Below are positions 19,815 to 63,033 of a DNA stretch of 64,000 nucleotides, piece after piece. How positions within the stretch are numbered: the first letter of the stretch is position 1; the number at the start of each line of letters is the position of its first letter. Both the position numbers and the translations under genes were made by a program. Source of the DNA: Thermoplasmatales archaeon. GTDB lineage: Archaea > Thermoplasmatota > E2 > UBA202 > JdFR-43. Under the pieces are notes generated by a model. The model was not told the DNA's origin. It made no database searches and saw nothing but the letters and a program-made list of their open reading frames with translations. Location: NCBI GenBank assembly GCA_014361195.1, contig JACIWA010000001.1, positions 186,001 through 250,000 on the forward strand, given 5' to 3'.

Positions 19815-20150
19815 AATAAAAAGGGGAAGAGATCAGCTCACGCCCAGCACAAATGGGCCGAGCACAAAGCCACTTGCTGTTCTTACTGCTCCTCCTGCAT
19901 TTACCTTAATTGTTGTCTTTCCAAATCCAAGGACTAATCCACTGCTTATTGTTGTGCTTGCTCCTGGTGCAAGTGTTGGTATTGTTCCTTCCGCATGCTT
20001 TCCTAATATTATAAGCCCTCCTTCTAAGTCAATGCTCCATGCAACATTGTTTGCTGGAATTGTTCCAACATTGCTGACTGTTGCCTTAACTCCAAATCCA
20101 CCAGATACGGCATCGATGTTTATTATAGCTGCTGGAATTGGAGAGAAATA
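19815..20150 (-). repeat. Shared 3' end of Asp-box paralogs, copy 1
   Basis: About 336 bp (3' coding end plus trailer) nearly identical to 21537-21872. It encodes the CARDB-like C-terminal domain. Confidence 0.85.
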
Positions 20151-21461
20151 GATGTCTTTGTTGCCATTTCTGTTATCTACCCAGACAATTCCTCTCTTAC
20201 ATATATCAACACAGTTTTCTTCTGCAACAACGCTTCCATCAACATCATTGACTTTTTCTGGCTCTGACCAAGTTGCTCCCCCGTCTTCCGATTTCACTAA
20301 GTAGAGGTTTCCTTCTTTTACATATGCAACATATGCGGTTCCACCTATAAAGCGAGCCACTGGATATAACTCATCTACAATAGGTGTTCCCGCAACAATG
20401 CTTGTTTCCCATGTTGCCCCATCATCTTTGCTATATGCACATTTTATATTCCAATCTCCATATATATTGTCATTGTTCATGTAGACAATTATAACATTGT
20501 TGCCTGATTTAGAAATTGATGGATATCTGCCAAAATCAATGTATTTCTGATACGGAGTATATTCTATGTCTGTTGATTCAGTATCTCCTTCAACTGGTAT
20601 AATTTTCTTCCAAACAATCTGGTAATTTTTAAGAGATTCATTATAATAGTCCCACGCATAATGGACATTCATGTTTTCTCCCGCCATACTTGGATTATCA
20701 GCTGGAGCGGTTAATAGACGAGTTTGAGCATCAAATGTTCCTTCTCCGCTAGTAGGCTCTCCATTCTCAAAACCAGTTATCATCTGTTCCGGGCAGGCTG
20801 GAATATCATATGTGCCATATATGAAATGGTAAATGTACATAGCAGCGGGTCCATGAATATCGTAATATTGCCCTTCCAAATAGGTAGTATCTGCAACACA
20901 TGCATCAATCGGGTCAGGTGTTTCCCTTGTCCAGTAGTAAATACTAATTGAGCCTATGTCTGTTATGTCAGGTATTGTATAAAACCCCATATGGAGATTT
21001 GTTTCGTCAAAATAGATGCCAAACAATCCTTTGTATACCTTGCAATCCTGCCATGAGATATCAGAATAGGTGCGTATTTCCCCTATATTTGTTGCATATC
21101 CAGTCCAGGTAGAGCCGTCAGAGGAATAAGCCCAACCTATTTCGCAGTTCATAAGAGCTCTTTCTTGAGTCCATGTTACAACTATATGCCCCGCATCATC
21201 TGTTGTAACCGCTGGCATGTAGTCATCATACTCAGAGCCTTCACTTACTAAAAAATTTCCACTGCTCAAAGTTGTGCCTTTACTTGTTGTTCCAAGTTTT
21301 ATGATTTCAACTTTCTCCTCCTTGACATCCTTTGGTATAAAAGATATTTTTTCCGAAATGCTCTTTTCCTTCGTTGTTGCACTGAGCGATGGTATAAAAG
21401 AGTTAGCTATCAGTACTGCCATCACTATTCCCGCCAATATCATTATTTTCTTTCCTTTCAT
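19833..21461 (-). CDS. Secreted Asp-box (BNR/sialidase-like) beta-propeller protein, paralog 1
   Basis: A 542-residue exported protein with a cleavable-looking signal (IMILAGIVMAVLIANSFIP). Asp-box motifs SSDGSTWTG (about residue 113), SKDDGATWET and SEDGGATWSEP identify sialidase-like propeller blades; catalytic residues of true sialidases cannot be recognised, so a binding role is as likely as hydrolysis. The last 95 residues form a CARDB-like domain (VKATVSNVGTIPANNVAWSI) ending GFVLGPFVLGVS, shared with paralog 2 and perhaps serving surface attachment. A GGAGG ribosome binding site lies at 21469-21473. The tandem paralog at 21555-23222 has nearly identical ends and a diverged middle. Confidence 0.8.
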   Translation of the reverse strand: MKGKKIMILAGIVMAVLIANSFIPSLSATTKEKSISEKISFIPKDVKEEKVEIIKLGTTSKGTTLSSGNFLVSEGSEYDDYMPAVTTDDAGHIVVTWTQERALMNCEIGWAYSSDGSTWTGYATNIGEIRTYSDISWQDCKVYKGLFGIYFDETNLHMGFYTIPDITDIGSISIYYWTRETPDPIDACVADTTYLEGQYYDIHGPAAMYIYHFIYGTYDIPACPEQMITGFENGEPTSGEGTFDAQTRLLTAPADNPSMAGENMNVHYAWDYYNESLKNYQIVWKKIIPVEGDTESTDIEYTPYQKYIDFGRYPSISKSGNNVIIVYMNNDNIYGDWNIKCAYSKDDGATWETSIVAGTPIVDELYPVARFIGGTAYVAYVKEGNLYLVKSEDGGATWSEPEKVNDVDGSVVAEENCVDICKRGIVWVDNRNGNKDIYFSPIPAAIINIDAVSGGFGVKATVSNVGTIPANNVAWSIDLEGGLIILGKHAEGTIPTLAPGASTTISSGLVLGFGKTTIKVNAGGAVRTASGFVLGPFVLGVS

Positions 21462-21536: not shown

Positions 21537-21872
21537 AATAAAAAGGGGAAGAGATCAGCTCACGCCCAGCACAAACGGGCCGAGCACAAAGCCACTTGCT
21601 GTCTTTCCTGTTCCTCCTGCATTTACCTTAATTGTTGTCTTTCCAAATCCAAGGACTAATCCACTGCTTATTGTTGTGCTTTCTCCTGGTGCAAGTGTTG
21701 GTATTGTTCCTTCCGCATGCTTTCCTAATATTATAAGCCCTCCTTCTAAGTCAATGCTCCATGCAACATTGTTTGCTGGAATTGTTCCAACATTGCTGAC
21801 TGTTGCTTTAACTCCAAATCCACCAGATACGGCATCGATGTTTATTATAGCTGCTGGTGTTGGAGAGAAGTA
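21537..21872 (-). repeat. Shared 3' end of Asp-box paralogs, copy 2
   Basis: Counterpart of 19815-20150 at an offset of 1722 bases. Confidence 0.85.
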
Positions 21873-23222
21873 AATATCTTTCTTTCCATTTCTTGTATCT
21901 GTCCATACTATTCCAAGGTCATTTATATCAACTGTTCCTGGCTCCATTGCAACTGTTCCATCAACATCATTTATTTTCTTTTCTTCTCCAAATGTTGCTC
22001 CTCCGTCTTCTGATTCAACAAGATATAGATTTCCATCTCTTACATATGCAATTGATATTTTATTTCCACTTACCCAAACCGCTGGATATTTCTCATCCAT
22101 CAATGGCTTTCCAATGGTTGTAAATTGCCACTGATATGGCTCATATTCTGGTGTTGTTGGATTTGTAATTGCACATATAATATTCCAGTCTCCATATATA
22201 TTCTCATTGTTCATATAAACTACCACAATTTTGTCACCCGCAGCAACATCAGGGTCTGTTCCCTTCGCAATTATACCCTGCCATGGCCATACTTCTACAT
22301 CCGCATATTTATCCATTCCACCAGGTCCTCCTCCCTGAGTTGTAAGCAATGGATTAACGGATGCAACGGTGGATTTGTATATTATTTCATATTCCTTTGT
22401 ATCCTCATTGTAATGCTCTATAACAAAGCATACTTTTGTTGTTCCTGTTGCCATTTCTGGTTTATATGCGGGTGCAGTCTTTGTTACTGATTGAGCATCG
22501 TAGTAGAAACCAGCAACCCATCCTGAATGCAAATCACCCGGTTGATAAATTTCATCTGTTGCCTTGTCGTGATAGGAATAAAGCAATTCAAGTGTTTTTG
22601 TTATTCCTCCGCTATCCGCAGTGCATAAATAGAGGAACCATTCCGCAACAACTCCCGCTGCACAATGCTCATATCCAGCTGCTCCTACCCCAGATACTCC
22701 CCACCATACTGCGGATGTTGCGGTTGCAATATCTCCAGGTATCCATGCATGCTCCATATTATACATTTCTGCCATCGGGTCAATCATTGCAAGGAAAAAT
22801 TCATCCGCTGTTGGAGAATATTTTATGTCGGGGCTTTGTAGCAACCCAGAGCCAGATGGGAATTCAACAGAATTGAATAGAAAAGCTGCATTCCATGTAT
22901 TTCCCATATCAGCAGAATATGCAACCTGTATTCCCTGTTCCATTGCACTTATTTCCTTTTCGTATGCAACTACAAGTGTTGAACCCTTTCTTGTTATCTT
23001 TGGGTGCATGTCATCTCCATCTGGGTTGTCTGAAGATATGAGAATGTTTCCTGTGCTTACTGTTGGTAATGGTTTATGTATTGCTTTTATTTCCTTATAT
23101 ATTGTTTTTGTTTCCGAAATGCTCTTTTCCTTCGTTGTTGCACTGAGCGGTGGTATAAAAGAGTTAGCTATCAGTACTGCCATCACTATTCCCGCCAATA
23201 TCATTATTTTCTTTCCTTTCAT
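21555..23222 (-). CDS. Secreted Asp-box (BNR/sialidase-like) beta-propeller protein, paralog 2
   Basis: A 555-residue exported protein with the same signal sequence and C-terminal domain as paralog 1. The middle differs but keeps the propeller pattern: HPKITRKGSTLVVAYEKE, SADMGNTWNAA, a YMNNENIYGDWNIICAI block and SEDGGATFGEE. It probably shares the fold and location of paralog 1 while binding a different ligand. A promoter and GGAGG site identical to those of paralog 1 precede it. No catalytic residues can be assigned. Confidence 0.8.
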   Translation of the reverse strand: MKGKKIMILAGIVMAVLIANSFIPPLSATTKEKSISETKTIYKEIKAIHKPLPTVSTGNILISSDNPDGDDMHPKITRKGSTLVVAYEKEISAMEQGIQVAYSADMGNTWNAAFLFNSVEFPSGSGLLQSPDIKYSPTADEFFLAMIDPMAEMYNMEHAWIPGDIATATSAVWWGVSGVGAAGYEHCAAGVVAEWFLYLCTADSGGITKTLELLYSYHDKATDEIYQPGDLHSGWVAGFYYDAQSVTKTAPAYKPEMATGTTKVCFVIEHYNEDTKEYEIIYKSTVASVNPLLTTQGGGPGGMDKYADVEVWPWQGIIAKGTDPDVAAGDKIVVVYMNNENIYGDWNIICAITNPTTPEYEPYQWQFTTIGKPLMDEKYPAVWVSGNKISIAYVRDGNLYLVESEDGGATFGEEKKINDVDGTVAMEPGTVDINDLGIVWTDTRNGKKDIYFSPTPAAIINIDAVSGGFGVKATVSNVGTIPANNVAWSIDLEGGLIILGKHAEGTIPTLAPGESTTISSGLVLGFGKTTIKVNAGGTGKTASGFVLGPFVLGVS

Positions 23223-62818: not shown

Positions 62819-62893
62819 AGTATTGCAATAACTAAAATTTTGATAGGGAGAAAAATTTAAAAATTGTTAATCAATAATTTTTTTCATAATTGT

Positions 62894-62994
62894 GGCCTGG
62901 GTGGTGTAGCGGTAACATAAGGGACTGTGGATCCCTTGACCCGGGTTCAAAATGCAGCTTGCCTGCAAGTTGCGTGGAAATCCCGGCCCGGGCC
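62894..62994 (+). tRNA. tRNA-His (GUG anticodon) with a 29-nt intron in the T loop
   Basis: Acceptor GCCTGGG (62895-62901) pairs with CCCGGGC (62987-62993), and the extra G at 62894 faces C at 62994, the G-1:C73 mark of tRNA-His. D stem GTGT/ACAT, anticodon arm AGGGA-CTGTGGA-TCCCT (GTG), T stem CCGGG/CCCGG. Removing 62952-62980 gives a normal 7-nt T loop TTCAAAT. A TATA-like TTTAAAAATT lies about 35 bases upstream. CCA is not encoded. Confidence 0.93.
62952..62980 (+). other. BHB-type tRNA intron at position 59/60 of tRNA-His
   Basis: Complete bulge-helix-bulge: outer T stem CCGGG/CCCGG; 3' bulge AAT; four-pair central helix TTCA/TGGA (one U-G pair); 5' bulge AAA; inner helix TGCAGCTTG/CAAGTTGCG closed by CCTG. 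Cutting after the second base of each 3-nt bulge removes exactly 29 nt and leaves a standard T loop. Confidence 0.9.
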
Positions 62995-63033
62995 CTCCCA
63001 AAATTTTTATTTATGTAAATTATAAAGGAAAGA

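Follow-up and report, generated by a model that had tools for sequence, protein, structure and literature searches.

We examined a window of 64,000 nucleotides (nt) from a Thermoplasmatales archaeon (assembly GCA_014361195.1, contig JACIWA010000001.1, positions 186,001 to 250,000), and found at 62894-62994 of its forward strand a tRNA-His(GTG) gene interrupted in the T loop by a 29-nt intron. All features of the gene lie on this strand and were read by hand; the gene and the intron were also checked by script, and the gene, intron and exon boundaries agree with an intronless ortholog described below. The gene encodes no CCA and extends from G-1 (62894) to C73 (62994), which pair with each other. 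Its 5' exon (62894-62951) ends with position 59 of the tRNA and its 3' exon (62981-62994) begins with position 60; the intron (62952-62980) is therefore located at 59/60, and not at the canonical 37/38 site. The acceptor stem (62895-62901 with 62987-62993) is paired at 7/7 positions with one G-U pair, the D stem is formed by 62904-62907 and 62915-62918, and the anticodon stem (62920-62924 with 62932-62936) encloses the anticodon GTG at 62927-62929. The T stem pairs CCGGG (62941-62945) with CCCGG (62982-62986). Removal of 62952-62980, with cuts after the second base of each bulge, gave a perfect cloverleaf in which all four stems were closed and the T loop read TTCAAAT.

The junction is a strict bulge-helix-bulge (BHB) motif. 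The T stem serves as its outer helix, and the central helix of 4 base pairs (bp) is formed between UUCA (62946-62949, T-loop bases 54-57) and UGGA (62975-62978) inside the intron. It is flanked by two 3-nt bulges, AAA (62950-62952) and AAU (62979-62981), with predicted cuts between 62951 and 62952 and between 62980 and 62981. The position of the cuts is set by the BHB, since the run of A residues alone would permit shifts of 1-3 bases. Within the intron, TGCAGCTTG CCTG CAAGTTGCG (62953-62974) forms an inner hairpin, identified by script, folding, pattern search and intron comparison as a member of an intron family of the form TGCARCYTG...CARGTTGC. In this hairpin 62953-62961 pairs with 62966-62974 (9 bp, including U-G and G-U pairs) around a 4-nt loop. 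The script returned the 9-bp inner helix, the 4-bp central helix and a tRNA-His once the RNA was spliced. Folding of the unspliced RNA gave z = -2.9, with the inner hairpin intact and the T stem mostly kept; together with about 100 similar T loops in the order, this places the architecture far above chance. An earlier, sequence-only reading of this DNA had described the same intron, its position, its BHB anatomy and its small hairpin, and had guessed at a Thermoplasmata source, all of which were borne out.

Standard tools annotated the gene wrongly. ARAGORN placed its 3' end wrongly, at 62966, and the Rfam tRNA model scored just 31.7 bits over a truncated span. A group I intron was dismissed, since 29 nt is far too short. 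The gene probably has its own promoter, as a box-A (TATA)-like element, TTTAAAAA, can be proposed from the letters at 62856-62863, preceded by a purine-rich stretch resembling a B recognition element; a T-rich stretch at 63004-63012 is a probable terminator.

An empty site, a single gene copy and the splicing enzymes

A genome of the same genus (G007) carries a tRNA-His ortholog without the insert, which is identical at 72/72 positions to the spliced form of the window's gene. Its upstream flank is orthologous as well (82% over 901 bp) and includes a gene for a CitMHS-family transporter. A second, intact tRNA-His gene, which the sequence-only reading had named, together with a missing spliced product from this one, as grounds for refutation, was not found by Rfam or by pattern in the window's genome, an assembly that is 96% complete in 39 contigs. 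Barring a copy in the unassembled 4%, the gene must therefore be spliced for His codons to be decoded.

The window's genome has an RtcB ligase gene and a single EndA gene for the splicing endonuclease. EndA is one polypeptide of 318 amino acids with two PF01974 repeats, and it aligns over its full length to the alpha'2 EndA of A. fulgidus (1r0v, residues 4-313, E 4.9e-31). The subunit type, to which the earlier reading had drawn attention, is thus the two-repeat alpha'2 type; a single two-domain protein does not correspond to an (alpha-beta)2 enzyme. The same architecture was present in 16/22 genomes of the order. In the six genomes lacking a PF01974 match, EndA was sought by protein and not found.

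T-loop introns in the window's genome and across the order

The intron of tRNA-His is not alone. Using the tRNA list and a T-loop-intron pattern, we found 43 tRNA genes in the window's genome, eight with a T-loop intron and three (Met, Thr-TGT and Tyr) with a canonical 37/38 intron. A looser initial pattern was too unspecific (146 matches, 123 in the reversed control), and the tighter one was used instead. The T-loop introns share one insertion point and occur in His (29 nt), Lys-TTT (18 nt), Leu-CAG (13 nt), Ala-CGC (13 nt), Ala-GGC (15 nt), Asp-GTC (17 nt), Arg-CCT (15 nt) and Pro-CGG (30 nt). The Rfam tRNA model missed 5/8 of these genes, including the sole Asp gene and both Ala genes found. 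The sequence-only reading had called a T-loop intron unusual; such introns are indeed not expected in this archaeal branch, but within this genome the T loop is the commonest site (8/11 introns), and the trait is order-wide.

Across 22 genomes of the order the pattern gave 156 matches, as against 37 in the reversed control, and about 110 candidate loci were examined. Removal of the insert yielded a complete tRNA at 79 loci, representing 25 anticodons and the same insertion point, and four further loci also carried T-loop introns. Another 16 had a perfect T stem without a complete tRNA being recognised after removal, in at least some cases because another intron was present, as in Leu-TAA and Thr-CGT. 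Twelve candidates were dismissed as chance matches, their T stems being unpaired. Some genes combined an anticodon-loop and a T-loop intron (Leu-TAA, Thr-CGT and Met; L157, L147, L197, L202, L254). The relatives are uncultured Thermoplasmata metagenome bins, some with Guaymas Basin isolate names.

A survey of tRNA-His in these relatives, which the earlier reading had proposed, gave a complete 59/60 intron in eight genomes (the window's and seven other assemblies), a 37/38 intron in four and no intron in seven; in G005 the gene was cut by a contig end, and two genomes had no pattern match. The absence is patchy between sister genomes (G018 as against G016 and G019; G007 as against the window's genome, G000), and on an AtpB tree the intron state changed at least six times, the deep forks of the tree being weakly supported. 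Relatives in which tRNA-His has a 37/38 intron in place of the T-loop one were seen at loci L039, L041, L042, L043, L053 and L058. The metagenome-assembled genome S4B1_HD70 has two tRNA-His genes whose 37/38 introns differ.

We also asked how far T-loop introns extend beyond the order. A covariance model of the T-arm BHB (R1) matched 21/22 genomes of the order and 0/58 other genomes of the class, where, as the model was trained on this order and applied with strict filters, zero is a lower bound. In the rest of the phylum it matched 20/213 genomes, mostly with one match apiece. Of these outside matches nine were read; five genomes had the intron in Lys-TTT, and Ala-CGC, Arg-CCT, Gly-CCC and Arg-TCT each had it in a single genome. 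Other parts of the phylum thus have T-loop introns too, but it is in this order that they are seen to have multiplied. In tRNA-Lys(TTT) of other families of the phylum (L261, L262, L268, L269, L270) the T-loop intron is accompanied by an extra D-arm insert, so that these genes apparently carry two noncanonical introns each, an arrangement common to three family groups.

Covariation of the BHB pairing

Two positions were unconstrained in the search pattern, namely base 57 of the T loop (A or G) and the intron base that pairs with it (C or T). In the 79 verified tRNAs the combinations were A-T in 36, G-C in 38, G-T in four and A-C in one (Fisher P = 8.5e-17; 2.2e-5 when collapsed by anticodon, with relatedness remaining in the test). 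The pair also switched between genomes within single isotypes, namely Ala-CGC, Arg-CCT and Arg-TCT. In an alignment of 30 sequences (A1), the cells of the T stem and central helix were 100% paired; shuffled alignments reached 84%, and a shift by one column gave no more than 66%. The covariation score was 0.485 (shuffles 0.161, slid at most 0.077). Base 57 provides the cleaner test, since the members of A1 had been selected for 4-bp central helices.

Related introns in different tRNAs

In G009, an identical 45-nt intron (45/45) is found in Gly-TCC and Arg-CCT, clearly different tRNAs on different contigs; in G019 the introns of Ala-CGC and Thr-CGT are 33/34 identical. Near-identical introns in different isotypes of one genome, as in Thermoproteales, thus occur here, and in G002 an identical 48-nt intron is present in Gly-TCC and Gly-CCC. 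The flanking T arms are also alike in these three pairs. This suggests that the T arm was the tract of recombination or conversion, a mechanism that we put forward as a proposal. The intron core of the window's tRNA-His gene and the core in Ala-GGC of G008 agree at 21/22 positions, and 0/500 shuffles scored as well. The hairpin TGCARCYTG...CARGTTGC had 20 matches in the 22 genomes, every one inside a T-loop insert, while the reversed control gave no match. The hairpin is thus not a dispersed repeat of a general kind. Taken together, the near-identical introns in different tRNAs and the confinement of the hairpin to T-loop inserts indicate that copies of introns have passed between T loops.

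In the window's genome, the only near-identical introns between isotypes are those of Leu-CAG (L079, G000 C2:165160) and Ala-CGC (L082, G000 C2:114304), which share an identical 13-nt intron, ATGCAAACGAAAA. In both, the central helix is present and the inner helix absent, giving a relaxed BHB.

At two loci of G007 (L090 and L091; C4:16832 and C4:38847), tRNA-Arg(CCT) sequences share the same 30-nt intron and do not differ in their 3' parts. In the second copy the 3' half is intact, but no 5' half is recognisable nearby; this copy is possibly a tRNA fragment that an integrated element left behind. Elsewhere in the window, 19833-21461 and 21555-23222 encode adjacent proteins, tandem paralogs whose N and C termini are nearly identical and whose middle parts have diverged.

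Discussion

We consider it very probable that the window holds a functional, single-copy tRNA-His gene, whose 59/60 BHB intron is spliced through alpha'2 EndA and RtcB and belongs to an intron family that has spread among T loops. In the precursor, T-loop bases 54-57 (UUCA) would pair with UGGA of the intron, completing a strict BHB whose other helices are the T stem and the intron hairpin. Each bulge would then be cut after its second base by the alpha'2-type EndA, leaving RtcB to ligate the exons and restore the T loop UUCAAAU. On this reading, the intron family has spread between the T loops of different tRNA genes in the order because the letters with which it pairs there hardly vary from one tRNA to another. 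An intron complementary to the almost invariant UUCRA can sit in any tRNA, whereas one at 37/38 has to match the tRNA that carries it. The copying may have used the near-identical T arm as a tract for recombination or conversion, or may have gone by reverse splicing followed by reverse transcription.

The alpha4 and alpha'2 enzymes are described as cutting strict BHB motifs only, in hosts with single canonical introns (PMC4090602, PMC4033280, PMC6379350). As the tRNA-His intron lies in a strict BHB, a narrow enzyme could process it at any location. Some points nevertheless weigh against our interpretation. The genome's own 13-nt introns in Leu-CAG and Ala-CGC lack an inner helix, whereas alpha'2 enzymes are described as narrow, with relaxed-motif cleavage reported at 37/38 of full-length pre-tRNA (PMC6379350). 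Two genomes, G002 (99% complete) and G009 (94%), have T-loop introns and yielded no EndA, either by PF01974 or with a sister's protein; assembly gaps are the probable cause, though the absence is unexplained. Finally, we infer the cleavage and ligation of pre-tRNA-His from the gene and its relatives.

Position 59/60 falls in the 3' half of the tRNA, which usually serves as the attachment site of archaeal integrases. T-loop introns may be retained because they break this half and so protect against integrating elements, a proposal that adds a reason for retention to the same splicing mechanism. The patchy absence of the tRNA-His intron between sister genomes suggests that any such selection is weak, and we regard this protection as doubtful. 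Less probable still is that no copying occurred, and that the introns descended vertically from ancestral T-loop introns, with hairpins that resemble each other through convergence on BHB-compatible letters. The T-loop introns seen in the phylum's other families, usually one to a genome, are in keeping with such descent. However, it does not readily account for introns of 45 and 48 nt that recur unchanged in different tRNAs within a genome, or for at least six changes of the tRNA-His intron on the AtpB tree, even given its weak deep forks. Nor does a BHB need the family hairpin, which many of the introns lack.

It is very unlikely that the window's gene is a decaying or inactive copy from which the insert is never removed, with tRNA-His supplied by a second gene. 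Such a gene could lie unseen in a genome that is 96% complete in 39 contigs, but neither Rfam nor the pattern detected one, all stems of the tRNA-His are intact, the BHB pairing is conserved with covariation in relatives, and similar inserts are carried by seven further tRNA genes of the genome. Although the insert is absent from the same-genus genome, an assembly or mis-join artefact is scarcely credible for a perfect splice motif that sits within a 279-kb contig and has same-site counterparts in tRNA-His of seven other assemblies.

The functional, spliced intron that we favour can be compared with several known systems. Noncanonical BHB tRNA introns with large-scale transposition have been reported for the Thermoproteales (Sugahara 2008; Fujishima 2010, as cited in PMC4033280 and PMC8450103), and the introns described here share with them short BHB structures outside the anticodon loop, similarity among different tRNAs, and rapid gain and loss. 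They differ in belonging to another phylum, in having the T loop as the dominant site found, and in occurring with an alpha'2 EndA rather than the alpha-beta heterotetramer. Abundant noncanonical introns outside the Thermoproteales are also seen in the Asgard Atabeyarchaeia and Freyarchaeia, where 92-95% of tRNA genes are interrupted, often by more than one intron (PMC11291895); here about a quarter of the genes were found with introns (11/43), and these are concentrated at 59/60. Canonical euryarchaeal introns lie at 37/38 and go with alpha4 or alpha'2 EndA (PMC4090602). The window's genome resembles these systems in its strict BHB, its alpha'2 EndA and its three 37/38 introns, but its T loops hold 8/11 of the introns found, and tRNAs of relatives sometimes have two introns. 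ARMAN-2 likewise combines noncanonical introns with a one-gene endonuclease, of the epsilon2 type (PMC6379350, PMC4033280); EndA here has two repeats in 318 amino acids, as in A. fulgidus, and not the three-unit epsilon form.

In the open-licence literature we found no description of T-loop introns in Thermoplasmata, Thermoplasmatota or Methanomassiliicoccales, and an earlier description is possible. What we did not find described there is such introns in an uncultured order of Thermoplasmata, a hot spot for them in the T loop and their association with alpha'2 EndA. Since the tRNAscan-SE 2.0 models already drew on some euryarchaeal noncanonical introns (PMC8450103), we do not claim the first noncanonical intron in Euryarchaeota. 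For annotation, the consequence is that tRNAs with T-loop introns can escape the Rfam tRNA model.

Reviews couple noncanonical introns to broad-specificity endonucleases (PMC4090602, PMC4033280), whereas most introns detected here, in a lineage with an alpha'2 enzyme, lie off 37/38. We see an even chance that this Thermoplasmata order independently evolved T-loop-specific introns that spread by copying, and that its alpha'2 enzyme accepts T-loop substrates, including those of 13 nt without an inner helix. If so, this would run against the rule, which restricts alpha4 and alpha'2 enzymes to canonical introns. The 13-nt introns would be the real test of alpha'2 narrowness. The rule of coevolution between endonuclease and intron, as well as the mode of intron spread, becomes directly testable in this lineage.
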